32,018 nt of DNA from a virus, in the IMG/VR virus record IMGVR_UViG_3300032164_000046, positions 1 to 32,018 of that record. One strand, given 5' to 3'. How positions within the stretch are numbered: the first letter of the stretch is position 1; every line of letters begins with the position of its first letter. The notes beneath the pieces were generated by a model. It did not search any database. It saw nothing but the letters and a program-made list of their open reading frames with translations, and had not been told where the DNA came from. Shown here piece after piece: positions 3,544 through 32,018 of this stretch. Made by a program: the position numbers and the translations under genes.

Positions 3544-3987
3544 ATGGCAGCGAAGAAGCTCTCTCCGGAGTTCCTGGCTCGCGTGGGCAAGACGGCCCCC
3601 ACCGTCACCCGCGCGAAGAACGGCCGACTCACGTCCAGCCGCTCCGAGTTCGGCAAGGAGATCGCCACGGAGCTCGTGAACGATCCCCAATATCGAAAGA
3701 GCGTCCTCGAGCGACTCCGCGCGGGAGTTGCGGGACCCCTTGAAGTGCATCTGTGGCGCCTTGCGTTCGGCGACCCCCAGAAAGACGACTCCGAGCGAGC
3801 GGCAGAGATCGCCAAGTTCGACAAGATCCGCGACGAGCTGCGCGACTACATGTCGAAGAACCGCGACCAGGCCCGGGTCCTCGACGCGGTAGTGACCCGG
3901 GCGCCGCGGCTCCTGCCCCTCCCCACCATGCGGCGGCCGGAGCCGGAACCCGAGAAACCAGACGAGGGCGATGCCCAGCCAGCCTGA
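3544..3987 (+). CDS. Candidate small terminase subunit
   Basis: This 147-residue, mostly helical, charged protein lies immediately upstream of the large terminase gene and overlaps it by 17 nt, the usual place for TerS, which recognises DNA and regulates packaging. The N-terminus is basic (several Lys/Arg in the first 30 residues), the middle is helical (about residues 35-110, with an Arg/Glu/Asp-rich coiled-coil-like end), and the C-terminus is Pro/Glu-rich. These features fit TerS in general, but I cannot point to a definite helix-turn-helix. The gene identity rests on position and size. ATG 3544 directly follows the previous stop. Confidence 0.65.
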   Translation: MAAKKLSPEFLARVGKTAPTVTRAKNGRLTSSRSEFGKEIATELVNDPQYRKSVLERLRAGVAGPLEVHLWRLAFGDPQKDDSERAAEIAKFDKIRDELRDYMSKNRDQARVLDAVVTRAPRLLPLPTMRRPEPEPEKPDEGDAQPA

Positions 3988-5518
3988 GCAGTTCGAGCAC
4001 GCGCACCTTCTCTCCCCGCTGGGGCTGGCCATGACAGCCACGGCGGGGGCGCCCCAGCCCTACGAGTACGCCGAGCATCTCGACCTCCTCTCCCAGGAAC
4101 TCGTCAAGCTGCGCTCCCGGGAGCCCGGATGGCCCCGGAGGCTCCTCGTCACCTTCCCCCCGCGGCACGGCAAGTCCGAGATGTGCTCCCACTGGTTCCC
4201 GTCTTGGGACCTGGCACTCGAGCCGACCGACAAGATCATCCTCACGTCCTACGAGGCCGAGTTCGCCGCCCACTGGGGCCGCAACGTCCGCCGGACGGTC
4301 CAGGAGCACTACCCGATCATCGGGGCTCGGATCACCGAGGACTCCAAGGCCGCCCACCGGTGGGAGACGACCCAGGGCGGCGGCATGGTCACGGCGGGCG
4401 TCGGGGGCCCGATCACGGGCAAGGGCGGCAACATCGTCATCTGCGACGACCCGATCAAGAACGCCGAGGAGGCCAACTCCCAGGTCATCCGGAACAACAT
4501 CTGGGAGTGGTGGGTCACCACGTTCCTCACCCGCATGGAGCGCGACCGCCACGGCAACGAGCCGATTCTCGTCCTGATCCTCACCCGCTGGCACGAGGAC
4601 GACCTGGCCGGCCGGATCATGCTCACCCCGGAGTTCAAGTTCTGGCGTCACCTCAACCTCCCGGCGCTCGCGGAAGGCGACAACGACCCCCTGGGCCGGC
4701 TGGAGGGGGACGCCCTGTGGCCGAAGAAGTTCGACGGCGCGACCCTCGAGTCCAAGCGCGCCGAGATGGGCTCCAGGGCCTTCACCGCCCTCTACCAGCA
4801 GCGCCCGTCTCCGGTCGAGGGGTCCGCGGTTCAGCGCTCGTGGTGGCGGTGGTACGACGACGCCCCGGCCCTCGACCAGTTCGACCAGATCATCCAGTCC
4901 TGGGACCCCACCTTCAAGGCCGCAGCGAGCTCGGACTACGTGGCCGGCGGCCTCATCGGGCGCCTGGGGAACCAGTTCTACATCCTGGACTGCGTCCACC
5001 AGCGGCTCAACGGGCCCGACACGCTCCGGGCGATCAAGCAGATGGACGACCAGTACCCCCAGGCCCGGTGGTGCCTCATCGAGGACACGGCCTCCGGGTC
5101 CATGATCTGCGACATCCTCGAGCGCGAGCGGGGGCACATCGTCCGGGTCAAGACGCGCGGCCGGTCGAAGGAGACCCGGCTCCACTGGGGCGTCAACTCC
5201 GTGGCGGCCGTCATCGAGCGGGGCCAGGTCTGGCTTCCCCGGGGTCGCGCGTGGGCCGGCCGGCTCGTGGACGAGGCGGCCTCCTTCCCCCACGGCCAGC
5301 ACGACGACCTGATCGACATGCTCGTCCAGGGGATCGAGCACCTGATGCCCAAGGCCTGGCTGTCGGAGAACCGTGCGGAGCGGCTCGCCAAGGTCCACAA
5401 CCCGGCTGACTACCACGAGGCAATGAGCATGGACCTCCACGCCAAGGTTCGGAAGCGGATCGAGGCGATCCGGAAGCCCATGCGCCGAAATCGTCGCGAG
5501 CCCTATTCCGGCGTGTGA
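3971..5518 (+). CDS. Large terminase subunit (packaging ATPase and nuclease)
   Basis: The 515-residue product is a clear TerL, the motor that pumps DNA through the portal and cuts it. The N-terminal ATPase has a Walker A PPRHGKS (residues 63-69, Lys68) and a Walker B NIVICDD (154-160). The C-terminal RNase-H-like nuclease shows acidic sites in SWDPTF (Asp312), LIEDTASG (Glu371/Asp372) and GQHDDLID (Asp445/Asp446). The length is normal for the family and all motifs appear intact. It overlaps the upstream TerS candidate by 17 nt and lies just before a small gene and the portal, the usual order. The packaging mode (headful or site-specific) cannot be decided here. Confidence 0.96.
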   Translation: MPSQPEQFEHAHLLSPLGLAMTATAGAPQPYEYAEHLDLLSQELVKLRSREPGWPRRLLVTFPPRHGKSEMCSHWFPSWDLALEPTDKIILTSYEAEFAAHWGRNVRRTVQEHYPIIGARITEDSKAAHRWETTQGGGMVTAGVGGPITGKGGNIVICDDPIKNAEEANSQVIRNNIWEWWVTTFLTRMERDRHGNEPILVLILTRWHEDDLAGRIMLTPEFKFWRHLNLPALAEGDNDPLGRLEGDALWPKKFDGATLESKRAEMGSRAFTALYQQRPSPVEGSAVQRSWWRWYDDAPALDQFDQIIQSWDPTFKAAASSDYVAGGLIGRLGNQFYILDCVHQRLNGPDTLRAIKQMDDQYPQARWCLIEDTASGSMICDILERERGHIVRVKTRGRSKETRLHWGVNSVAAVIERGQVWLPRGRAWAGRLVDEAASFPHGQHDDLIDMLVQGIEHLMPKAWLSENRAERLAKVHNPADYHEAMSMDLHAKVRKRIEAIRKPMRRNRREPYSGV

Positions 5519-10994: not shown

Positions 10995-12251
10995 ATGGCC
11001 GACACCGGTGCATTCCAGGACATCAGCAACGAGCTGAAGAACGTCTACCCCACGGGCACCTTCGAGGAGCCCGTCAACAAGAACAGCAAGTTCCGCCGCG
11101 ACCTGCAGAAGGTCGACCTCATGCTCGCCGAGGGCGTCGGCTACTTCCCGCTGGGCGTCGCCTCGGCGTGGAACGTCGGCGTGATCGCGGACATGGGGAC
11201 CTTCCCCGCGCCCATCGACCCGACCCGCATCCAGGGGAAGGTCACCCCCGAGCTCTTCGTCGGCTCCTTCCAGATCGGCCTCAAGACGAAGGTCGCCGCG
11301 AAGACCGCCAAGGGCACGTTCAACACGGGCGGCATCATGGCCGACCGCGTCGAGAACACCGTGGCCGAACTCGGCAAGTACATGAACCGCGTCTACGTGG
11401 GCTCCACGAACGGGATCATGGCCACCGTCGCCTCGAACTCCGGCGGCTCGGTGATCGTCCTGCAGAAGCCCCTGGGGGCCGAGCTCCTCAACAAGAACAT
11501 GCGGGTCGACTTCTACAACGCCGGCACGCCCCGCACCGCCGTCAACACCGCCCTCACCGTGGTGAACCGCGCGACCCAGACGGTCACCTACGCGGCCGCC
11601 AACGACGCCGCCATCGCGGCCGGCGACTTCGTGTACATCGCGAACACCTACGGCCGGGAGATCTGGTGCCTCACCCAGATCGTCGGGGACGCCGCCGACC
11701 AGGCCACCATCTACACGAACGGCAACCGCTCCACGTACCCCGAGCTCAACGCCTTCGTGCAGCGCTCGACGTCGGGCTTCCGGGACATCTCGGAGCAGCT
11801 CATCCTCGACACCATCGACCTCCCGATGCGGGAGACGGGCAAGAAGATCAACAAGGCCCTCTCCAACACCGGCCAGGCCCGCAAGTACGTCGAGATGATC
11901 CAGGCCGAGCGGCGCTACGCGGGCCCGCAGGGCGGGGCTCCGCGCTACACCGTCGGCTACGACGAGGACTCGCTGCAGATCCTCGCCCCCGGCGTCAACG
12001 TCAAGCTCGAGGTCGACGTCGACTGCGCCCCGCGGCGCATGTACTTCCTCGCGATGGACACCTTCGGTCGGTACGAGTCCATGCCGATCGACTGGATCGA
12101 CCAGGACACCCTCCTCCGGCTGGTCCCGGGCTCCGGCACGTTCAAGGCCGGCTTCCTGGCCTACGTCGGGTGCGTCGAGAACATCATCAACACCATGCCG
12201 CGCGCGAACGCCCGGCTGGACGACCTGTACGACCCGATCTGCGGCGACTAG
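10995..12251 (+). CDS. Major capsid protein (HK97-fold type)
   Basis: This 418-residue protein lies just after the scaffold gene and has the composition of a major coat protein: evenly mixed, few Cys, helix-rich flanks (LGKYMNRVYVG in the spine-helix region), and a beta-rich insertion-like part (about residues 140-235 with Ala/Thr/Val repeats such as TLTV...TVTYAA). The C-terminal part carries segments typical of P22/N4-class coat proteins (MYFLAMDTFGRYES, then a Gly-rich turn and TMPRANARLDDLY). Length is normal. Codon usage is the most uniform in the window, as expected for a highly expressed gene. HK97 fold is inferred from context; I cannot run a structure search. Confidence 0.88.
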   Translation: MADTGAFQDISNELKNVYPTGTFEEPVNKNSKFRRDLQKVDLMLAEGVGYFPLGVASAWNVGVIADMGTFPAPIDPTRIQGKVTPELFVGSFQIGLKTKVAAKTAKGTFNTGGIMADRVENTVAELGKYMNRVYVGSTNGIMATVASNSGGSVIVLQKPLGAELLNKNMRVDFYNAGTPRTAVNTALTVVNRATQTVTYAAANDAAIAAGDFVYIANTYGREIWCLTQIVGDAADQATIYTNGNRSTYPELNAFVQRSTSGFRDISEQLILDTIDLPMRETGKKINKALSNTGQARKYVEMIQAERRYAGPQGGAPRYTVGYDEDSLQILAPGVNVKLEVDVDCAPRRMYFLAMDTFGRYESMPIDWIDQDTLLRLVPGSGTFKAGFLAYVGCVENIINTMPRANARLDDLYDPICGD

Positions 12252-17376: not shown

Positions 17377-19526
17377 TGCCGATCATCTATGCCCAGGGCG
17401 GACGTCTTGGAAACGATTCGGCTGGAGGCGTCGTCGCGCCCAGCCAGTTCGCGGCCCAGGGCGCCATCTACACCGGAAACCGACCATGCTTCGTCTGGTT
17501 CCGCGGCGACCTTCACGTCATCGGCTACTACACCCGCCCCGTGGTGCGCTTCATGGCCGACGCGGGCCAATGGCGCCTCTCCGGGATCAAGTCGCCCCAG
17601 GAGAAGCTCTCCGTGGCCCCGGGAGCCCTCGCTGGAGGGTCCGCTGGCGAATGCCTCGCGGCCATCACATTCCTCCACAAGTCGGGCCAGAAGGTCCTCG
17701 CCGAGTCGAACTTCTCGAACGTGGTCGATGTGGGAGCGCTCACCGGAGAGGGTCGCTCGTGGTCGAACATCGACAAGAACACGGCCGAGGATCGGGTCAC
17801 ACACGTCCGAGGCTACGTCTCGATGAACGGGAACCTCTTCCGCATGGCATGGGAGGCTCCCTTTGGGATTTCTACGATCACCGAGAACACGCGCACCGCC
17901 GCCCTCACCTTCGCCGGGCCGAACGACTTCGACCACGGGATCACGCCCGCCACACGCTTCGGGCACTCCTTCGCCGGGCGCATGTGGTACGCGCGCTCGT
18001 CTCAGCACCCCTACCGCGTCTGGTACTCGATGGCCGGGGAGCCGCAGTACGTCAAGCCGGCGTCCTTCCGGGACACCTGGGACAAGGAGCCGATCACCGC
18101 CATCTGGAAGGGGCGCAACGAGCTCCTCGTCTTCTGCCAGCGCGCGAGCTACATGATCCGGCAGTTCGGCCAGGGCGCCGACGACTTCATCATGGAGAAA
18201 CTCGACTCCGACGTGGGGTGCGTGAGCCACTGGGGAATCCAGGAGATCCACAACAAGGTCTGGTTCCCCAGCGAGGACGGCATCTGGATCTACGACGGCG
18301 GCTTCCGCTACCTGATGAAGGAGGTCCAGCCGCTCTGGGGTGGGGACTGGAAGACGAACAAGAACGACTTCCTCAACGGCTTCTCGATGCACGACCGCGT
18401 CAACAAGATCTACATGTACGCGACGAACCGAGCGGCGAAGCCCGAGTACGAGGGCCTGGACATCTTCCCGGGAACGGTCACCTACTGCGGCTACTACGGG
18501 CAATTCGAGCCGTCCATGCAGGGGAATCAGCCGAACCCCGAATGGACGATCGACATGAAGAACCGCTTCGACTCGAGCGGCTTCTACAACTCCGACGGCG
18601 AGCTCGTGATCGGCTCGTGCGACGGTGTCATTCGGAAGCAGGACGAGCTCAACGCCGACGACGATGGGGACCTCCTCCAGAAGGAACTCGTCATCAGGAC
18701 CGGGCACCAGCTCTTCTTCGATCCGGGCGACGACCTGGAGGGCGGCAAGCAGCTCAATCAGCTCTGGGCCTACATCGAGTCCGAGGCGACCGCCTGGCGC
18801 ATCTACGCGAAGGGCGGCGACGAGCAGGCCTGGCAGGGGATGCTGCCTGACAACGACTTCTGGTTCTGGACCGCGACCGTTGCGGCGGCCTCGAGCGGGG
18901 AGATCCGCCGGATCACGCCGAGCCGGAGCGGCCCCAGGACCTACGACCTCCTCTACGTGCCCGCGGGGACCCACTGGTTCGTGCCGGAGCGGGTGACCGG
19001 GCGCGGCTTCACGTTCGAGATCCGGGCTACGGCCCCGGTGGGCCTGCAGTACCGCGGCATCGGCGGCCTATGGTCGCCCGGCTCGACCGCGCGCGGGGTG
19101 GCGGAGCGCACGAACATCACGCTCTCCGCGACCATCAACGCGACCGACCTCGACCTCAATCCAAGCCTCCCCTGCGGCTACTACCCCTTCACCATCAGCG
19201 CGGTCTACAACTACGGCTCTCCGCTGGCCCCCGTTGTCGCGACGATCACGGCTGTCGCCACGGGCGGCGCCGCGGTCAATTTCACCGAGCAGGTGACGCT
19301 GAATCCCGGCACGCTCATCGGGGTATCGGCTGACCACCTCTTCTGCGAGGACGATGCCTATGACGTCACCATCACGCTCGAGGACGGGAACGGAATCCCC
19401 GCGAATGCGCCGGTCACTGGCGCGATCCTTGGCATCGTGGGCGGGACCTTCCTCACGACCGCGAACGTCACGAACGCCACTCCGGGGGTCGGGGTCTCGG
19501 TCACCTTCTCGGCCACCTTCCCATGA
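17376..19526 (+). CDS. Tail nozzle-like protein, second part, with C-terminal Ig/PKD-like region
   Basis: The 716-residue product contains the segment most typical of nozzle/stabilisation proteins: a Trp-Tyr-Ser-Met-Ala-Gly-Glu-Pro-Gln strand, then ITAIWKGRNELLVFCQ, a GCVSHWGIQEIHNKVWF stretch and EDGIWIYDGGFRYL. These repeat the Phe/Trp, small loop and Asp-Gly pattern of beta-propeller blades. From about residue 570 it turns into Thr/Val/Ala-rich beta repeats that resemble Ig or PKD domains; the final residues read GVGVSVTFSATFP. ATG 17376 overlaps the upstream stop (TGATG) and GGGGAGA lies about 11 nt upstream. The 3' end overlaps the next ATG by 4 nt (ATGA). Role: connects neck to tail tip; the C-terminal repeats may hold receptor-binding units. 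Confidence 0.7.
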   Translation: MPIIYAQGGRLGNDSAGGVVAPSQFAAQGAIYTGNRPCFVWFRGDLHVIGYYTRPVVRFMADAGQWRLSGIKSPQEKLSVAPGALAGGSAGECLAAITFLHKSGQKVLAESNFSNVVDVGALTGEGRSWSNIDKNTAEDRVTHVRGYVSMNGNLFRMAWEAPFGISTITENTRTAALTFAGPNDFDHGITPATRFGHSFAGRMWYARSSQHPYRVWYSMAGEPQYVKPASFRDTWDKEPITAIWKGRNELLVFCQRASYMIRQFGQGADDFIMEKLDSDVGCVSHWGIQEIHNKVWFPSEDGIWIYDGGFRYLMKEVQPLWGGDWKTNKNDFLNGFSMHDRVNKIYMYATNRAAKPEYEGLDIFPGTVTYCGYYGQFEPSMQGNQPNPEWTIDMKNRFDSSGFYNSDGELVIGSCDGVIRKQDELNADDDGDLLQKELVIRTGHQLFFDPGDDLEGGKQLNQLWAYIESEATAWRIYAKGGDEQAWQGMLPDNDFWFWTATVAAASSGEIRRITPSRSGPRTYDLLYVPAGTHWFVPERVTGRGFTFEIRATAPVGLQYRGIGGLWSPGSTARGVAERTNITLSATINATDLDLNPSLPCGYYPFTISAVYNYGSPLAPVVATITAVATGGAAVNFTEQVTLNPGTLIGVSADHLFCEDDAYDVTITLEDGNGIPANAPVTGAILGIVGGTFLTTANVTNATPGVGVSVTFSATFP

Positions 19527-20320
19527 GTAGCCCGCCGCTTCCCTCGCGCTACCGATGGCGGTTCGACCAGTCGACTCTATGGAACGGGCTCGTCCACGCA
19601 TGGGCGCTCGATGAATCGTCCGGAGATCGAGGTGACGCCGTTGGTTCGTGTGACCTGGTCGAGGTCGGGACGGTTCCGGCGGTGGCGGGCCTTGTTGGGA
19701 ACGCGGCCGACGCGACTGGCGGATACCTGTACAACCCGGCGCTGGCCGAGTCCTTGACCCAGAAGTTCGCCTTCGCGGTCAACTTCAAAGCGGGCATTGG
19801 CGGGTCGATGCTGATGCTGCAATTTTTCCACTTTCCCGGAGCGTTTTTCGGCGGACTCCTTCAGAACCGCGTCTACTGGGAGGTGGACGCCTGGACCGAC
19901 CCTCACGCATCGTGGGGGGCCTCTGCCGGGGACGGACTCTGGCACACGATCATCGTCTGGGTCGATCGAGACGAGGACAACCGTATTCAGTCGAGCTTGG
20001 ACGGGGCCGCAACCGTCTACAGCGCATTCCCGATCACGGGCACATTCAAGGTGAATCCCGGTCTGGGAATGCCGATCTGGGTGGGGTACGGTGTCGACGG
20101 GACCACGCCGACAGGACTCGCGCTACAGCGGCTTCTCTGGTGGAACCGGTCGCTCACGGCAGGTGAACGCGCGGAGATCTTCGCCGGCCACTACTACGGC
20201 TCGGCCCGGAGTGCCGCGGCATACCCCTACCCCACCGCCGGCGCTAAGGTCTGCTCTCTCCAGGTCACCGACGACTGCGGCCTCGTGGCGACCGATACCG
20301 TCGTGGTGACGGTGACATGA
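19523..20320 (+). CDS. LamG-like tail-tip protein flanked by PKD-like ends, copy 1
   Basis: The 265-residue protein starts within the stop of the previous gene (ATGA). The first residues (RYRWRFDQ) resemble a PKD-domain strand (YxWdFGDG), the last about 30 (PTAGAKVCSLQVTDDCG and then a DTVVVTVT end) resemble the second half of a PKD domain, and in between (residues about 20-230) lies a LamG/concanavalin A-like domain (HAWALDES, DGLWHTIIVWVD, LQRLLWWNRSLT). LamG-type domains bind glycans or proteins, so a receptor-binding role is likely. The next gene has the same architecture. The LamG assignment is based on these segments; the PKD resemblance is by eye. Confidence 0.75.
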   Translation: MSSPPLPSRYRWRFDQSTLWNGLVHAWALDESSGDRGDAVGSCDLVEVGTVPAVAGLVGNAADATGGYLYNPALAESLTQKFAFAVNFKAGIGGSMLMLQFFHFPGAFFGGLLQNRVYWEVDAWTDPHASWGASAGDGLWHTIIVWVDRDEDNRIQSSLDGAATVYSAFPITGTFKVNPGLGMPIWVGYGVDGTTPTGLALQRLLWWNRSLTAGERAEIFAGHYYGSARSAAAYPYPTAGAKVCSLQVTDDCGLVATDTVVVTVT

Positions 20321-21216
20321 GCAGCCCCCTTCCGGTCCGCTATCGCTGGGACTTCGGGGATGCGCTGCCTCGCTTCTCTCGGACTGGGCTTCATTGTTAC
20401 TGGGCACTTAATGAAGCCAATGGGACAAGAGCAAAAACTTACGGGTCGTCTGTCACAGGAGATCTATCCGAAACGGGTGGTGCCGTTCCGGCTGTCGTCG
20501 GGCAGTATGGGAATGCAGTCTCTTCAACTGAGGCGCAGGCTGGGCATCTGGTCGGGACTTTTGATGAAGTGGATCTGGCAGCAACTGGTTTCACCATTGC
20601 GATGCGTCTCTACTGGGCTCCGAAGAGTCCTACGGTTGAAGTCGAATCCTTGATTCATCTCTGGTCTTCGTCGGGCGGGGCTGTCCCCCTGAGTTATCCA
20701 AACCTTGCAATCGTTCGCTATTTCGACACCGACTACGTGAACTTCGGAATGACAGGTAGCGCAGGAAGTACCGTCAACATTGCTCAATTCGGGAATGGGG
20801 TACCAGGTCCGTTCATACCGAATGCATGGAACTTCCTCATCTTCTCTTGGGATGCAGCAACCGGACAAATGCTCATCCAGACGAATGATCCACTGACCGG
20901 GACCAGAGGCGGAACCCCACTCGTCGGGACGTATTCTGCCGCCAATTTCGGGTCTACTGGCTTCAAGTTCGACAGCATAGACCTCTTGGGCAAGTGGGCC
21001 AATTCGGGGATAGCGTGGCAGGGCTATGTTGACGAGGTGGCTCTGTGGGCGAGAGTTCTCACGACAGATGAAAGAGCTATCGTATTCGACGGCAACTCCA
21101 GGCTTGAAACCCCCGTGTACCAGTATCAAACGGCTGGGGTTGAGACGGCCTCCGTCACCGTCACCGACGCCTGCGGGCGAGTCGCAACGGACACGGTAGC
21201 GGTGACGGTGACGTAG
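20317..21216 (+). CDS. LamG-like tail-tip protein flanked by PKD-like ends, copy 2
   Basis: This 299-residue paralogue of the preceding gene starts in its stop (ATGA). The N-terminus (MSSPLPVRYRWDFGDA) and C-terminus (SVTVTDACGRVATDTV and a final VTVT) are close to copy 1. The LamG-like centre (HCYWALNEANG, GFTIAMRLYW, VDEVALWARVLT) is only similar in pattern. Most of it is clearly less GC-rich than every other gene here (about 20390-21110), while the ends keep the local GC-rich style. This suggests that the centre was acquired from another source. It is probably involved in host recognition. No enzyme motif is visible. Confidence 0.75.
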   Translation: MSSPLPVRYRWDFGDALPRFSRTGLHCYWALNEANGTRAKTYGSSVTGDLSETGGAVPAVVGQYGNAVSSTEAQAGHLVGTFDEVDLAATGFTIAMRLYWAPKSPTVEVESLIHLWSSSGGAVPLSYPNLAIVRYFDTDYVNFGMTGSAGSTVNIAQFGNGVPGPFIPNAWNFLIFSWDAATGQMLIQTNDPLTGTRGGTPLVGTYSAANFGSTGFKFDSIDLLGKWANSGIAWQGYVDEVALWARVLTTDERAIVFDGNSRLETPVYQYQTAGVETASVTVTDACGRVATDTVAVTVT

Positions 21217-23901: not shown

Positions 23902-26900
23902 ATGGCGATCTCCCCACCTGGCCCCCGGCGACCCCTGACGCTCGACGAGACGCTCGCCGACCTCGAGGCGCAGCGCCAGGCATCCCTGGCCGCAGCGCCG
24001 CCTCCCGCCGCCCCTCCGCCGCTGCCGCTGATCCCGGAGCTCCAGGGCCGTCCCGATCCGTGGGCGTCCGTGGGCCTCCCGCCGCCCCTCGACCTCCCCG
24101 CGTTCACGCCGGCCGAGCCGACCCCGCCGCCGCCCGCGCCACCCGGCATCATCGGGCGCTCGATGGAGGCGCTCTCGGAGGCGGGCGGTCGCGCGGCGGC
24201 CTACTACGCCGGGAACCCGGCGGCGCTCTCGGAAAAGCCCCCCTCGCTGCGCGAACAGGCCGAGGGCGCGTTCGGCTGGGCCGCGGCCGGCGAGCCGGAG
24301 CCTGGCGAGGACCCGGGGATGGCCGGGCGCCGGGCGATCGGCCGTGGTGTCGGAGACGTAGCCGCAGGCCTGGCCGACCCGAGCCAGCTCGCCCTCATGG
24401 CCGGCATCTATGGCGCGGCCGCGGTTGCGCCGGTGGCCGGGACGATCCTGGGCATCGGCGCGATGGGCATGATGGCCAAGTCGACGTTCGACCAGGCCAG
24501 CAACGCGATCGCGCTGGGGAGCAAGTTCGGCTTCAAGAGCCCGGAGTTCCTCCAGGCCGCGACCGAGGCGGGCGGGAACACGGCCATCCTCGGCGCCCTC
24601 GGCTACCTCGGCTACCGCAGCATGAGGCGCAAGCCGGTCGCCGCCGAGCCTGCGGAGGCGCCGCCGACCCCTCCCACCGGAGAGGCGCCGCCCGCCGGAG
24701 GGCTACCTCCCGGAGTGCCGCCGCCGCAGCCCGGAGAGCCGCTCCCGCCCCGCGGCGCGCCGCCCGGCCCCCCGCCGGCCGACGCCCCCCCGCGCCCCCC
24801 GACGATTGATCCGCTCCATCCGAGTGCCGAGCTTTGGGACGACGCCTACCGGTGGGCGAAGGACCAGGGCATGGACGAAACCCAGGCGATCGGCGTTGCC
24901 GACGTGGTTGTAACAGAGACGGCATTCCCGCCCCCATCGCGACCCCTCGACGGAGCGCCAAAGGTCGAGAAGCAGATGGGGCCCGGAGAGGGCCGGCCCG
25001 AGAATGTGGGGACGCCGCCGAGGACAGAGCTCGAGGCGAGTACCGAGCCGTTCGTTCGTGCGACTCTCGCCGAATTCGACCGGGCGATCACGGCCGCGGA
25101 AGCCGCCGGTGACGCCGAGCTTGCCCAGCGGCTTCGCAACGAACGCTACAAGGTTCTGACGGCTGGGAGCAAAGCGGCGAGTGCTCCTACGCCGGCCAGA
25201 ACACCAGAGGCAGGATCGGTTGCGTTCCCGCCAACCCCGGCCCCGGGGCCGACCGGAAGCGCAACGGCGACGGCGACTGCACCGCCGCCCCCCGGCACCA
25301 CCGTTCCCGGCCCCCGGCCCGGCGCCGAGGTCACCCCGATGATCCCCGGCGAGCCGGTCGCGCCCGGCGCCGCGACCCCCGTCGAGGCGGCCGGGGCGCG
25401 CGCCGCCGGCCAGGCGCCCGAGGTCGACGCACTTCTTGCGGCCGCCCGCGACCAGGCCGCGGGCGGCACGGGCGAGACGCTCCCCCCCGGGCTCACGCCG
25501 GTATCCGGCCGGCCCGAGGGCGCCGCGGCCGCCGCGGGAGTCCGCCCGACCCCTGCCCTACCGACGGTGACCGGTGTCGTTCCGACCCCGCTGGCGCCGC
25601 CCGTGACGGGGATGGCCCCGCCCCCCGCGCCGATCCCGTCGCCCGTGGCCGGGCCGCTGCCGGCGCCGCCCTCGCCCGCTCCGCAGCCGCAGGAGCCCGT
25701 GGCCCCGGCAGCGGCGCCCGTCACGGCGCCCACCGGCGGCAGAATCCGCCTCAAGGTCGTCGACGGCATGTGGGTGGCCGGGCACGAGGGCCCCGTTGCC
25801 GCCAAAGTCCAGGAGGCGTTTGGTACCACGGAGGTCCCAACGCCCTGGGGCGAGGAGACGGACCCGGCCGAGATCGTTGCGGAGCTGCAGAACCGCAACC
25901 CGAACCTCGAGGTGGTCGTGGACCGGGCCCCCACGGGGCCGGTCATCCTCCCGCCTACGCGCCCCGCCAAGCCCACGGCGGCGCCTCCCGTGGCTGTTGC
26001 CCCGCCCCGCCCCGCTCCGGCCCCGCCTGCGCCGGCCGCTGCCACGGAGGCCGAACCTACGCGACGTCTCCGCATCGGGCGGGGCGCCCACGGCCAGGTG
26101 GAGGTGATCTTCCCGGACTCCACCCACGCCGACCTGTTCTCGGCCCCGGGCCGGTCCCGGCGCCAGATGCGAGGGGAGGGGGCCGGCCGCCGAGGGGCGG
26201 ACTGGCCCGGCCTGGCGAGCCGGCTGAAGGTCCCGGAGGCCGAGGTGGGCGCTGCGGCCCAGCGCTACCGGGACCGCATCCAGCGGAACATCCGGGCCCT
26301 CCCAGAGGGCGAGAGGTACGAGGCGCCCCGCTGGGACTCCGAGGACACGGAGGCGCCGGCCCCCGCGCGCGCCGCCGAGGCGCCGCCGGAGGCCGTCCAA
26401 GGCGACATCGGGCGGGGCCCCGGGGGGCAGGGCTGGATCGTCCGGACCTACGGCCGGGACAAGAAGGTGGTGTCCGAGTCCGAGGCCTACGTCAACAAGG
26501 ACGAGGCGAAGGGCGCCCTGAAGGCGCTCCAGGCGCAGCTCGGCCGAAACCGGTTCGAGGCCCGGAAGAAGGAGATCTCCCCGACCGAGGAGGACTGGGC
26601 GGCGATGTCGCCCGCGGACTACGAGGCCAGGGTCGTGAGCCCCGGTGGCGTGCGCGACCCGAACCGCCTCGATCTCGGCGAGCTCAAGGAGCAGGCGGCG
26701 GCCGGCAGCGCGACGACGGCCTACCGGGCGATCCGGGCCGCGCACTCGATGGGGAGGCCCGTCCACGAGGGCTGGTACGACGTCTTCCCGATGCTGCGGA
26801 AGGTTCCGAAGACCGGAGAGCGCGGGCGGGCGGGCGCCGAGTTCAAGCCCGAGAAGAAGCCGGCCGAGGCGCCCGCCAAGAAACCGACGAAGCTCCAGCA

Positions 26901-29900
26901 GGAGATCGCGAATATCCTTGAGTTCTCAGCGGACGGCTACGTCGAGCCCGACACTGACTTCTCCGGATTCAAGATCGGCGATGTCGTCAACGTCAAGGGG
27001 AAGAAGCAGCAGGGCAGGATCACGCGTCTCTGGTCGGTCAAGCACGCGAAGAACGCCGCGCAGGAGAAGCAGATCCGGCGCGACTTCTCAAGCGGGCGCG
27101 TTGCCAACCTGCACTGGTCCGACGGGACAGGACAGAACGTCGACCTCGCACGGTTGAGCAAGGCCACAACGACCAAGCCCAGCCGGCCCACCCACGACGC
27201 CGAGGGGAATCCGATCCGGTACGCAACGCCGAGTCCTGGCATGGCCGCCGCGGCGCAGGGGCTCGCCGGAGAACTGGCGCCCGCGCCGGCGAAGCCCGTC
27301 GACGTCGCCCCGCCGGCCGCTACGGACCCCGAGCTCGAGGCCGAGCTCGGCCCCGGCGAGGAGCCGGTCACGCCCTCCGATGTCGCGCCGGCGGATCGCG
27401 ACTGGGTCGCGGGATGGGGCTCCTCGCGGAGCGCCGCATTCCAGCGAGCGACCGAGCGGGTGGCGGAAGCGCTTCGCGCGGACCTCTACAAGCTGACCAA
27501 CGACCAGGACTTCCGCTGGCGCCTGGTCAACGACGCCAAGGCGGACTGGGAGTACTTCGGCCAGAGGATCGACGCCGCGACGAACCAGAAGATCAAGAAC
27601 CGGGCGAATCAGCGAGCGGCGGCGAAGCAGAAAGTTGAGTCCCTGGAGGCGCTCTACGCCGCGGGCCGCGAGTCGATGGCAGGACTCCTGAAGGGCGAAA
27701 AGGAGGGCGCGGCCGTCACGGACCGCATTCACGCCCTCATCGAAGGGCGCGCCGGCCTCAACCGCACCCAGCGAGACCCGGGCGCGCTGCCGCTGACCGG
27801 CTACGCCTACGAGATGGTGAGGGGCTGGGCCGAGGAGCGTGAGAACCTCTCCGTCGAAGAGGCGGTCGCGGAAGTCCTCGAGCGCGCACCCTACTACGCC
27901 GAGCGCTGGACCGCGGAGGACGTGATCTCCGACCTCGAGCGTCTGGCCGAGCGTCTCGACAAACTCAACGAGCAGCAGGTCCGGTTCGAGGTGGACATCC
28001 CCGGCATCGGGCGGAAGAGGCTCAAGAGCCTCCTCGACATCCCGCCCGCGATGCTGGGCGCCCTCTCCGACGCCAACACGGCTGCCCTCAAGCAGGTCAC
28101 CGACTACCGGCGCCGGACGATGGCCGAACGGAGCGCGATCGAAGAGCTGCTCACGGAGTTCCAGGAGCCGGCGCACCACGACACCCTCCACCGGATCGCG
28201 GATGCGCTGACCCAGGACCTGGCGCTCATCGCGGCCCGGCCGGAGTTGAAGGCGGAAGAGCCTCTCGCCAAGACCTTCATGTGGGACGTGCGGGATCCGG
28301 CCACTGGCAAGCAGATCACGACGGAGCAGGCCATCAACGCGATCCGGGAGGGCCGCGGCCGGCTGTTCGCCAGGATCCTCTCGGAGTACCGGCTGGCGTC
28401 CGCCCTCATGGCCGACAACATCCCCTTCGACGTCCCCGACGGCGGACTCGCGGACGGGGAGGGCATCCTCGAGGCCCCGGGCAGCAGGCGGCCCCAGCAG
28501 GACCTCATCCCCGGCTTCCTCGAGGCCGTCATGGGGACGCCTCAGAAGCCCGTCGAGCGCGCGGGCAAGCCGGCGAGCAACTTCATCGACTCCGAGCTCT
28601 TCACCCAGGAGGAGCGCGCGAAGGCGCAGGCCGACGAGGAGAGGTCGAAGAAGGCGCAGAAGGGGCTGTTCAACGAGGCCGCGGGCACCCGGACGGTCAT
28701 CTTCCTAAACAGTCCACAGGACGAGTTCAACGGTCGGTACGGTCCGCCCCCGCGGCGGGCGACGGAAGCGCAGCTCGCGGCCCGTCGAAAGTGGCTGGAC
28801 CTCGTGACGACGTTCGCGAATACTGGAGGCTCCAATGAGCAAGGCGCACCCGCACTCCGTCCTGCCAAAGACGCCGAAGGAGGTGGGGATCTTCGCTCCG
28901 ACTCCCTACAGCCAGCTCTCGGAGGAGGAGCGCAAGACGCTGACCGAGGCCGAGCTGGTGGAGGCGCTCGCGGAGGAGAGCGAGGACTGGCAGGCGTTCC
29001 AGGAGGCGAAGGAGCTGCAGGACCTGGCCGAAGCGGAGCGGGTCGAACTTCTCGAAAGGGAATCTTCGAGATCAACGACCCCCGATACGCCGCAACCCAC
29101 GCCAGGCCCCCGAAGTACGACCTCATCCCTGCTCGACTCCGAGGAGTAGACGCAAACGGCGACTCCTACCTCTCCGAAGACCAGCAGATCGGGGTAGCGA
29201 AGGCGATCGAGGCGACGGAGGCCGGCAGCGGCTTCCTGTTCGAGGACGGGACCGGGGTTGGCAAGACCCGGGAGCTCCTGGCCGTCGCGTACTACTGGGC
29301 CAACCAGCCGCTTCCCGAGACGAAGCCGGGGTTCTACGATGGGCTCACGGACGCCGACCTCGAGGCCGCGCTGGATGCCTACCGGACCAATCCCGCCGCA
29401 GCCACTGTCGCCTCACGAGAGAACGCCGAGCGGATGCGGAAGGAGCTCGACCGGCGCCGCTCCACCACCGAAGAGCCGCCGCCATACTCCAAGGCCACCG
29501 ACGCCGAGCTCGAGGCCTACTGGGAGCAGGAGGTCGGAACGGCCTCGGCGACGGCGCAGGATGCCGCGAAGCGTGCCCGGAAGGAACTCGATCGGCGCAA
29601 GGCCCTCGCGAGCGCCCACGCGCCCTCGTCCTTGAAGCACAAGGTCATCATCGTCTCCAAGTCCGGCGCCATCGAGGCCGTGAAGGACAAGGACGGGGTG
29701 TGGCGTCCCAGCGGATCCTACGCGGACGACTCCGCGGCGATGGGCATCCCGATCACCTACATCAAAGACCGCACCCAGCCACTCGAGCCGGGGAAGGTGT
29801 ACCTGGGGACGTACCACGATCTGCGCGACTACAAGATCGACAACACGACCGTCCTCCTGCTCGACGAGGCGCACCAGCTCAAGAACACCGGCCAGTCCGA

Positions 29901-32018
29901 GATGCACTCGGCCGGCGTCTCGCTGATTCGGAAGGCGAAGGTGACCGTCTTCGCGACCGCGACCCCGGGAGACAAGCCGTACCACATGGCGTATCTCTCT
30001 TCGATCGGCCTCCTGGAGGGCAAGGAGATGGTCGAGGCGATGAAGCAGCTCGGAGTCACCGTCAAGGAGAAGAAGACGTTCTCCGAGAGGCTCTACAAAA
30101 AGCTGGTGTCGGACAACGTCCCGGCCCACGAGGCCCGCGAGCAGGCGACCGAGACGTTCTACATGTGGAAGACGACCAACCTGAAGAAGATGCACAAGGA
30201 GACGGAGGCGCTGTTCACGCGACTCACCGAGAAGGGGACGGTGGTGAAGCGCGAGGTGGACATGTCCTCCATCGACGTGCGGACGGTGATGATCCGATTG
30301 CCCGAGGACGGCCACAAGGCGATGGCCGAGATCGAGCAGGGCCGCTTCGACCGCAAGACCATGCTGCAGCACCAGCGGCGCCAGCAGGAGCCGTACAAGC
30401 TCGAGGCGGTGAAGGGGATCATTCGGGCCGAGCTCGCCGAGGGCCGCCAGGTGGTACTGTTTGCCGCCCGGGTCAACCGATCCGACGTGGTCGAGAAGAC
30501 GAAGGACCCGGAGACTGGCGAGCTCATCACCCGCCTCCTAATGAGCTCCGAGGGGACGCTCAAGCAGCTTCGCGAGTGGCTGAAGGGGGAGGGGATCGCC
30601 TTCTCCGAGATCCACGGCGCAGCCGACGAGAACAGCAAGACCGCCCAGGCCCGCTTCCAGTCCGGCGAGGCAAAGGTGGTGATCGCCACCTACGAGAAGG
30701 GCGGGACCGGGATCAACCTGGACGACCGCGGCGGCGCCGCCCCCCGGACGATGGTGATGATGACGCCCCCGTTCGACTCGGTGTCGGTCGTCCAGGCGGT
30801 CGGGCGGATCCACCGCTTCACGACGCGGTCGTCCTCGCGGGTCCACATGCTCTTCACGGACCACGGCATCGACAAGTGGAACGCGCGGATCCTCGCGACG
30901 AAGATCGCGATGCTCCACGCGATGGTGTCTGGCGACATCGAGCTCCTCGACCCGTCAATCCTGGGCGGCGGCGAGGAGGCCCTCCAGGCCGGCACGGTCC
31001 ACTACGGCGATGCCGCGGTGAAGCTCCTGAAGGAGGGCCCCCCGGACCAGGCCAACGGGCTGCGGTCCGCCCGCGAGTGGAACTATGTGATCGCCCAGCT
31101 CAAGAGCCTCGGCGTGAAGATCACCCAGAAGGGCGGGGAGTTCTCGATCCAGACCCACGAGGGCTTCGCGATTGAGGGCACGCTCGAGAAGACGCCGCGC
31201 GCCCTCACCTACGGGGTCCTCCGGTGGAACCACGACGAGGAGGCCGGCGACCTGGTGAAGACGCTGGCGCTCGCGCCCTCCGTCATGCGCGGCGCGAAGA
31301 CCTCGTCTCAGGTCGCGGCAACGCTCGCCAGCCTCCATCCCGGCCGCGAGCAACTGAAGAAGATCATCTCCACGAAGCAGTACGAGATGCACGCGCGGGT
31401 CCTTCGCGACCTCGGGGCGATCTACGGCACCGACGGGAAGCCCGGCTCGTTCACGATCCCGACGGCAGAGGGTCACCTGTACGCCGGCGAACTCGTGGCC
31501 GCGGCCATCGACTGGGGTGGGCGCGCGAAGCCCGGCCAGGAGGGCGGGTTCTACTGGCAGCGGCTCGGGAGCGAACTCGTCCAGCAGGCCACCCAGTCCC
31601 AGGCGGAGAATCGCCGCAACATGGACCGCCTCCTGGCCCGCATCGAGAAGGGCGCCTCCTTCCGCGATCTCTACACGCGGCACCAGCCGGCCCTGCGCGA
31701 GCTCTTCGGGAACGACACCGACCTGTTCATGCGGATGCTTGCCGTGACGTTCCAGGCCGCGAACACCCGCGGCTCCTTCACGCTTGCGCTCAAGGCCTAC
31801 AAGCAGCTCCGGCTGGGCCAGCCGTTCGCCGGGTTCATGGGCCCCGTGCGCCGGGCGCTCGACAAGCTCGCGGCCGGCGAGTCCGAGTACGTGCGCGGCC
31901 CGAAGATGCGCCCGTTCGCGATGGCCGCGACGAACGAGGACCTCCACTCGATCGCGGTGGACCGCCACGTCGGGCGGTTCATCCTCGGGGACGACTGGAA
32001 CGGTTCGGAGGCCCAGAT
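23902..32018 (+). CDS. Giant polyvalent virion-type protein with SF2 helicase (3' end beyond window)
   Basis: One frame is open from ATG 23902 to the window end (at least 2705 codons, no stop). Residues 1-110 are Pro/Ala-rich; 163-194 and about 225-242 are hydrophobic and could cross or perturb membranes; long Pro/Ala/Gly linkers follow; small modules come next, including an SH3-like one (about 1023-1087); about 1170-1450 is helical. Then an SF2 helicase of SNF2/strawberry-notch type appears: Walker A GTGVGKT (Lys1788), DEAH (1988-1991), TATP (2019-2022), TYEKGGTGIN, and QAVGRIHR (2298-2305). Position after virion genes suggests a protein packaged and injected to act on host or phage DNA early in infection, as proposed for phage polyvalent proteins. 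From about 28835 to 29050 coding statistics favour another frame, so the translation there (a Gly/Ala/Arg-rich stretch) may be wrong. The region before 28835 and after 29060 is firmly coding in this frame. Confidence 0.85.
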   Translation, partial: MAISPPGPRRPLTLDETLADLEAQRQASLAAAPPPAAPPPLPLIPELQGRPDPWASVGLPPPLDLPAFTPAEPTPPPPAPPGIIGRSMEALSEAGGRAAAYYAGNPAALSEKPPSLREQAEGAFGWAAAGEPEPGEDPGMAGRRAIGRGVGDVAAGLADPSQLALMAGIYGAAAVAPVAGTILGIGAMGMMAKSTFDQASNAIALGSKFGFKSPEFLQAATEAGGNTAILGALGYLGYRSMRRKPVAAEPAEAPPTPPTGEAPPAGGLPPGVPPPQPGEPLPPRGAPPGPPPADAPPRPPTIDPLHPSAELWDDAYRWAKDQGMDETQAIGVADVVVTETAFPPPSRPLDGAPKVEKQMGPGEGRPENVGTPPRTELEASTEPFVRATLAEFDRAITAAEAAGDAELAQRLRNERYKVLTAGSKAASAPTPARTPEAGSVAFPPTPAPGPTGSATATATAPPPPGTTVPGPRPGAEVTPMIPGEPVAPGAATPVEAAGARAAGQAPEVDALLAAARDQAAGGTGETLPPGLTPVSGRPEGAAAAAGVRPTPALPTVTGVVPTPLAPPVTGMAPPPAPIPSPVAGPLPAPPSPAPQPQEPVAPAAAPVTAPTGGRIRLKVVDGMWVAGHEGPVAAKVQEAFGTTEVPTPWGEETDPAEIVAELQNRNPNLEVVVDRAPTGPVILPPTRPAKPTAAPPVAVAPPRPAPAPPAPAAATEAEPTRRLRIGRGAHGQVEVIFPDSTHADLFSAPGRSRRQMRGEGAGRRGADWPGLASRLKVPEAEVGAAAQRYRDRIQRNIRALPEGERYEAPRWDSEDTEAPAPARAAEAPPEAVQGDIGRGPGGQGWIVRTYGRDKKVVSESEAYVNKDEAKGALKALQAQLGRNRFEARKKEISPTEEDWAAMSPADYEARVVSPGGVRDPNRLDLGELKEQAAAGSATTAYRAIRAAHSMGRPVHEGWYDVFPMLRKVPKTGERGRAGAEFKPEKKPAEAPAKKPTKLQQEIANILEFSADGYVEPDTDFSGFKIGDVVNVKGKKQQGRITRLWSVKHAKNAAQEKQIRRDFSSGRVANLHWSDGTGQNVDLARLSKATTTKPSRPTHDAEGNPIRYATPSPGMAAAAQGLAGELAPAPAKPVDVAPPAATDPELEAELGPGEEPVTPSDVAPADRDWVAGWGSSRSAAFQRATERVAEALRADLYKLTNDQDFRWRLVNDAKADWEYFGQRIDAATNQKIKNRANQRAAAKQKVESLEALYAAGRESMAGLLKGEKEGAAVTDRIHALIEGRAGLNRTQRDPGALPLTGYAYEMVRGWAEERENLSVEEAVAEVLERAPYYAERWTAEDVISDLERLAERLDKLNEQQVRFEVDIPGIGRKRLKSLLDIPPAMLGALSDANTAALKQVTDYRRRTMAERSAIEELLTEFQEPAHHDTLHRIADALTQDLALIAARPELKAEEPLAKTFMWDVRDPATGKQITTEQAINAIREGRGRLFARILSEYRLASALMADNIPFDVPDGGLADGEGILEAPGSRRPQQDLIPGFLEAVMGTPQKPVERAGKPASNFIDSELFTQEERAKAQADEERSKKAQKGLFNEAAGTRTVIFLNSPQDEFNGRYGPPPRRATEAQLAARRKWLDLVTTFANTGGSNEQGAPALRPAKDAEGGGDLRSDSLQPALGGGAQDADRGRAGGGARGGERGLAGVPGGEGAAGPGRSGAGRTSRKGIFEINDPRYAATHARPPKYDLIPARLRGVDANGDSYLSEDQQIGVAKAIEATEAGSGFLFEDGTGVGKTRELLAVAYYWANQPLPETKPGFYDGLTDADLEAALDAYRTNPAAATVASRENAERMRKELDRRRSTTEEPPPYSKATDAELEAYWEQEVGTASATAQDAAKRARKELDRRKALASAHAPSSLKHKVIIVSKSGAIEAVKDKDGVWRPSGSYADDSAAMGIPITYIKDRTQPLEPGKVYLGTYHDLRDYKIDNTTVLLLDEAHQLKNTGQSEMHSAGVSLIRKAKVTVFATATPGDKPYHMAYLSSIGLLEGKEMVEAMKQLGVTVKEKKTFSERLYKKLVSDNVPAHEAREQATETFYMWKTTNLKKMHKETEALFTRLTEKGTVVKREVDMSSIDVRTVMIRLPEDGHKAMAEIEQGRFDRKTMLQHQRRQQEPYKLEAVKGIIRAELAEGRQVVLFAARVNRSDVVEKTKDPETGELITRLLMSSEGTLKQLREWLKGEGIAFSEIHGAADENSKTAQARFQSGEAKVVIATYEKGGTGINLDDRGGAAPRTMVMMTPPFDSVSVVQAVGRIHRFTTRSSSRVHMLFTDHGIDKWNARILATKIAMLHAMVSGDIELLDPSILGGGEEALQAGTVHYGDAAVKLLKEGPPDQANGLRSAREWNYVIAQLKSLGVKITQKGGEFSIQTHEGFAIEGTLEKTPRALTYGVLRWNHDEEAGDLVKTLALAPSVMRGAKTSSQVAATLASLHPGREQLKKIISTKQYEMHARVLRDLGAIYGTDGKPGSFTIPTAEGHLYAGELVAAAIDWGGRAKPGQEGGFYWQRLGSELVQQATQSQAENRRNMDRLLARIEKGASFRDLYTRHQPALRELFGNDTDLFMRMLAVTFQAANTRGSFTLALKAYKQLRLGQPFAGFMGPVRRALDKLAAGESEYVRGPKMRPFAMAATNEDLHSIAVDRHVGRFILGDDWNGSEAQ
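25171..25743 (+). repeat. Pro/Ala/Gly-rich linker in the giant protein
   Basis: About 190 codons in which Pro, Ala, Gly, Thr and Val make up nearly all residues, with repeated Ala-Pro-x-Pro and Val-Pro-Thr-Pro-like units. It is probably a disordered tether between modules. A similar shorter tract lies at about 24637-24819. Confidence 0.7.
28835..29149 (+). CDS. Alternative-frame ORF inside the giant gene, first 70 codons look coding
   Basis: ATG 28835 follows a good ribosome binding site (GGAGG at 28825-28829). The 104-codon frame runs +1 relative to the giant gene. Of its first 70 codons, all but four end in G or C, the signature of real genes here, and the peptide is a normal acidic helical sequence. 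Over the same bases the giant frame gives a Gly/Ala/Arg-rich string with many A/T third positions. After about 29045 the situation reverses: this frame becomes Ser/Thr/Pro-rich and the giant frame coding-like. So either this is a short overlapping gene, or its first 70 codons are really the start of the helicase gene, joined to it by an indel near GAAAGGGAA (29054-29062). Confidence 0.5.
   Translation: MSKAHPHSVLPKTPKEVGIFAPTPYSQLSEEERKTLTEAELVEALAEESEDWQAFQEAKELQDLAEAERVELLERESSRSTTPDTPQPTPGPRSTTSSLLDSEE

Follow-up and report, generated by a model that had tools for sequence, protein, structure and literature searches.

The stretch of DNA analyzed here (the window) is a virus record of 32,018 bases, IMGVR_UViG_3300032164_000046, and all the features located in it below are on the + strand. 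A giant open frame starts at ATG 23902 and runs off the window at 32016. Its at least 2,705 codons without a stop fill the last quarter of the record, and the predicted product is a polyvalent internal virion protein. Region A (27397–28806), an upstream domain of this protein, is conserved by homology to two relatives, L003 and L010. The downstream part (29062–32016) begins with (G)IFEINDP, lacks a start codon of its own and is predicted to be an SF2 (SNF2/Strawberry-notch-like) helicase, with matches to Pfam AAA_34 and Helicase_C and also to phrog_62. Between region A and the helicase the giant frame reads as a linker rich in Gly, Ala, Pro and Arg (28804–29061, 86 amino acids, no stop), and the same segment carries, in the +1 frame, a nested gene that we call X (28835–29149). 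X would encode an acidic protein of 104 amino acids (pI 4.5) with a conserved core at 28835–29059 and predicted helices within residues 30–79. A Shine-Dalgarno-like GGAGG (28825–28829) lies five bases before the ATG of X. The landmarks listed in an earlier note on this DNA were all found in place, namely the stop-free giant frame from 23902 to 32016, the ATG at 28835, the GGAGG, the ATGA at 28835–28838 and the A/G run at 29054–29062.

L003 is a 29.4 kb virus contig that was retrieved by a motif scan of virus contigs, and its helicase and upstream part are 54% and 41% identical, respectively, to those of the window. L010, which lies on a 66.8 kb contig of a different record set, was found by a scan with the upstream region, and its helicase is about 38% identical. 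Region A itself shares 40–44% identity with L003 and, over part of its length, 35% with L010. The earlier note had advised that homologous genomes be compared for the presence of one or two genes at this place. Both contigs hold one unbroken, full-length giant frame (3,602 codons in L003 and 4,552 codons in L010), with X at the same joint. In protein searches, cultivated phages and plasmids yielded no relatives of region A, X or the helicase beyond generic helicase motifs, and no relative of the region was found in 398 genomes from the phylum to which L004's organism belongs.

For the polyvalent proteins of phages and conjugative elements, Iyer et al. (2017, PMC5512222) proposed an injection along with the DNA. 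The giant protein is likewise very large and multidomain, and it combines several catalytic domains that are unrelated to one another and typical of that class: the SF2 helicase is accompanied in L003 by InPase (PF18823) and RadC domains. As read from the sequence, this domain content carries the marks of the polyvalent proteins described by those authors. The difference is that here a conserved +1-frame gene lies at a domain joint; the word "overlapping" is absent from the main text of PMC5512222. In its C-terminal part, the giant protein of L010 is similar to internal virion protein D from Pelagibacter and Roseobacter podoviruses (22–30% identity over up to ~530 amino acids); no similarity of region A, X or the helicase to these phages was found. 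This resemblance suggests that the giant protein may be an ejection protein, which would be packaged and injected with the DNA. The core running from region A to the helicase is common to L003 (5543–16351) and the window (23902–32016), and InPase is found only in the L003 copy, the window copy having no Pfam match to this domain. Since InPase was not found in the window copy while the A–X–helicase joint is kept, upstream modules appear to be swapped next to a joint that stays fixed.

At this joint the coding signature leaves the giant frame for the +1 frame and later comes back. Third-position G/C in the giant frame is 0.9–1.0 up to ~28690, falls to 0.33 at 28980–29010 and is again 0.93 by 29220; in the +1 frame it reaches 0.97 over 28980–29010, and it switches likewise in L003 and L010. 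Codon usage was then scored using the rest of the giant gene as the reference. Per codon, the X segment scored +0.44 (+1 frame) against −0.53 (giant frame) in the window, +0.51 against −0.69 in L003, and +0.41 against −0.80 in L010. Among 244 windows of the same length elsewhere in the giant gene of the window, none had so low a giant-frame score or so high a +1-frame score, and the scores of the X segment were unmatched elsewhere in each of the three giant genes. In a sliding scan, this segment was the sole part of each giant gene that was better coded by another forward frame, and the offset was always +1. The switch to the +1 frame and back to the giant frame that the earlier note had described is thereby confirmed, and it spans 28835 to ~29059. 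The shift is far beyond chance and recurs in the two relatives.

The alignable homology of region A stops at ...QLAARRKWLDL (28803), directly before the frame switch. In L003, the giant frame reads as a Gly/Ala/Arg string between ...QLAARQRWADL and GIFHIVNP, and the +1 frame over the same segment reads VDYPHRALPPNEDQL...RLLEQ. In L010, a Gly/Pro/Arg string precedes GIYDI and the +1 frame reads VDRQPPEAPDG...RLLERR. The giant frame is open and in phase in both relatives, and in all of this set of only three genomes the step from region A to X is +1 and the step from X to the helicase is −1, despite the differing lengths of the segment.

Three explanations had been left open for the window: a short overprinted gene, a pair of compensating indels (natural or from assembly) and a hidden gene boundary. 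The first of them stands, since the position, the +1 phase and the codon signature are the same in three phages and the giant frame is open in all of them. The second would leave one giant protein in which X is not a gene. The A/G run could conceal a missing base, but the same double switch is present in two independent contigs (54% and 38% identity), and codon usage and protein conservation still act in the +1 frame, so that an artefact or a recent event is refuted. A missing base in the A/G run that would separate X from the helicase is also unneeded, the phase being the same in three genomes. According to the third explanation, an upstream gene extends to TGA 28836–28838 and the helicase is encoded by a gene of its own from 28835, one base having been lost from each. 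The ATGA overlap together with the GGAGG (28825–28838) is what such a boundary might look like. However, no TGA overlaps the start of X in L003 or L010, where the ATGA is missing and the phases are the same as in the window, and no stop interrupts the giant frame in any of the three genomes. We consider this boundary very improbable. As far as the sequence can tell, the helicase is fused to the upstream virion protein.

The X frame combines its coding signature with conservation at the protein level. The X proteins of the window and L003 are identical at 29 of 70 positions with no internal gaps (E=5e-12). It had been pointed out before that homologues aligning to the giant-frame string would speak against the switch; in shuffle comparisons of the window and L003 the z value was 10–11 for X versus 2.2–2.7 for the giant-frame reading, and the giant-frame readings compared with L010 gave z values of about 0. 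The L010 X shows weak sequence similarity (a single comparison gave E=0.003), and when L003 and L010 were compared a third, noncoding frame gave a z value similar to that of X. The case for X in L010 consequently rests mainly on its place, phase and codon signature. At third codon positions, X is slightly less variable than comparable windows (0.44 vs. 0.45–0.60), a difference that is suggestive only. The predicted proteins have 104 (window), 94 (L003) and 87 (L010) amino acids, with pI values of 4.4–4.8. In the window protein, helices are predicted at residues 30–35, 38–48 and 50–79, with pLDDT of about 80–94 over most of these helices and a low-confidence tail where the protein overlaps the helicase. 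Comparisons of X with Pfam, PHROGs, solved structures (by fold) and phage records produced no convincing match. The identification of X as a head scaffolding protein (phrog_172) was considered and rejected, the match being found in one of the three members only (E=0.018).

Because of the in-frame TGA at 28805–28807, X cannot start further upstream in the window. An aligned TGA is found in L003 at 9765, and it is absent in L010. With the +1 frame stopped upstream in the window and L003, X needs a start of its own. The start signals before X are GGAGG in the window and AAGGGAGAA in L003, and no ribosome binding site precedes X in L010. At the other end, the +1 frame stays open beyond the switch-back, to TAG 29147–29149, which gives X a formal overlap of about 30 codons with the helicase start. 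A promoter scan near X returned nothing above the threshold. Inspection by eye of L010 (7899–7934) revealed TTGACA, 17 bases, TACTCT and then 7 bases to the GTG of X, without a ribosome binding site; the TTGACA-17-TACTCT arrangement is a possible promoter from which X would be transcribed as a leaderless message. Immediately behind the conserved end of region A, GTGA in the window (28804–28807) is aligned with TTGA in L003 (9764–9767), a site that places the +1-frame TGA beside a possible giant-frame start codon in two of the three genomes. The +1-frame TGA that follows WxDL was also considered as a termination site and discarded, as it is present in the window and L003 (NTGA) and absent in L010.

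The giant-frame linker has no ATG, GTG or TTG after GTG 28804, and in all three genomes the giant frame crosses X without a stop. In simulations that used the X protein and the codon usage of the gene, the chance of this was 0.38 for the window, 0.25 for L003 and 0.55 for L010. For the two relatives only, the chance of no stops (about 0.25 × 0.55) multiplied by that of the phase (1/9, or 1/3 each) amounts to about 0.015. With moderate confidence, we take the giant frame to be kept open by selection. Avoidance of A/T-ending codons in X would be expected if the third base also serves the giant frame. Such codons number 0 of 73 in L003 (p=0.0001) and 0 of 66 in L010 (p=0.005), as determined by simulation, and elsewhere in the giant genes of L003 and L010 windows with none of them make up 1.3% and 2.5%, respectively. 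In the X gene of the window A/T-ending codons are not avoided (7 observed, 6.9 expected). An independent start for the helicase was sought and rejected, as there is no ATG, GTG or TTG near its beginning in the window or L003; in L010, an isolated, unaligned GTG (8081) lies before the helicase and ATGs lie downstream. The open frame, the same phase, the lack of a helicase start and the avoidance of A/T-ending codons, taken together, favour a true fusion, and our confidence that the upstream part and the helicase form one protein is moderate. The predicted fold of the joint between region A, the linker and the helicase had a mean pLDDT of 40, too poor to use, with the linker among the lowest, structureless parts.

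A different product would result if translation started at 28835 and a programmed −1 frameshift near 29055 joined X and the helicase in one protein, the giant-frame linker being a bystander. Such a frameshift would fit the conserved part of X, which in each of the three genomes ends exactly where the helicase begins and is always followed by a −1 step, the poor conservation of the tail of X up to its own stop, and the predicted helix that extends to residue 79, beyond the junction. However, the X frame of none of the three genomes contains an X_XXY_YYZ heptamer, and a G_GGA tetramer found at the junction in L003 and L010 is absent in the window. In addition, the downstream RNA structure, in a model of folds other than pseudoknots, is weaker than in shuffled sequences (z values of 0.64, 0.90 and 0.20), and the upstream frame free of stops in three genomes would be left unexplained. 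We regard the frameshift as distinctly unlikely.

The explanation that we prefer, and consider probable, is that X is a genuine overlapping gene with an independent start, that a part of an ejection protein and an SF2 helicase are fused via the linker, and that X is the older of the two readings. We infer that both frames are translated. One ribosome path would read the full giant frame and produce a virion protein with the upstream domains and the SF2 helicase on a flexible linker. A second initiation at ATG 28835, aided by the GGAGG, would read the +1 frame to produce X, a small, acidic, helical protein of 104 amino acids. X would be the older, codon-adapted frame and the linker the newer reading, an order judged from codon usage, which is a criterion for viral overlaps (PMC8227390). 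The simplest history would begin with three neighbouring genes, X being the one in the middle. Its upstream neighbour, which stopped just short of X, and the helicase gene, which started just past it, would have lost the stop and the start that separated them and become fused over X. This three-gene order, which forms part of the preferred explanation, is a possible ancestor of the fusion. Our guess is that X could help to make, fold or package the giant protein translated from the same mRNA.

The alternative that X arose de novo by overprinting in a giant gene that was already fused, and later took the codon preference of the genome, differs from this explanation only in the order of events. 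Overprinting is the usual reading of most nested viral overlaps, and old de novo genes can gain a genome-like codon usage (PMC8227390). Nonetheless, it is the giant-frame reading that has the alien codon usage and shows no sequence conservation, X has the best codon fit, and the alignable upstream homology ends just before X. We find a de novo origin rather unlikely.

A history like the preferred one, in which X came first, was proposed for the spacer of the hepatitis B polymerase, where a short gene once located between two neighbours would have been fused over (PMC8227390). Both cases consist of a multidomain fusion via a linker taken from the other frame of a short gene (the surface gene in hepatitis B), and in both the older frame is told by codon usage. 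They differ in that hepatitis B is a reverse-transcribing animal virus with unrelated proteins and a small gene that later grew, whereas this is a tailed phage; moreover, an ancestor with the upstream part, X and the helicase as three separate genes was not found among the relatives here. There is an even chance that the fusion in a tailed phage leapfrogged an intact small gene, whose −1 frame became the disordered linker of an injected protein of >3,500 amino acids, that the small protein stayed in use, and that the dual reading was then maintained over a long period (helicase identity 38–54%).

If both products are made, this would be a clear tailed-phage example of a linker derived from the shifted frame of a gene that already existed. 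A linker with that origin implies that two genes can be joined into a fusion protein while the gene lying between them survives. It would provide a testable model in which giant injected phage proteins grow by fusion, in parallel with the hepatitis B polymerase spacer hypothesis. X would be overlooked by gene finders that choose the longest open frame, and the alien low-complexity stretch would be reported as part of the giant protein. In the pairs formed by phiX174 E in D and lambda Rz1 in Rz, a small protein is encoded in an alternative frame inside a larger gene, and the larger gene itself encodes a conserved protein where the two overlap. Here, in contrast, conservation lies in the nested frame, and the enclosing frame reads as a low-complexity linker. 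The joint is real, conserved and unusual; what is new is a nested frame that is codon-adapted and structured, placed inside a reading that forms the linker of a giant, fused virion protein.

In the rest of the phage genome, the major head protein (phrog_14242) and the terminase were located at 10995–12251 and 3971–5518, respectively. The head protein has only weak relatives in cultivated phages (26% identity to Microbacterium phage Shocker), which places this phage far from known isolates. At 19523–21216, two adjacent proteins begin alike (MSSPPLPSRYRW and MSSPLPVRYRW), and the pair is probably a tandem duplication of a structural gene.
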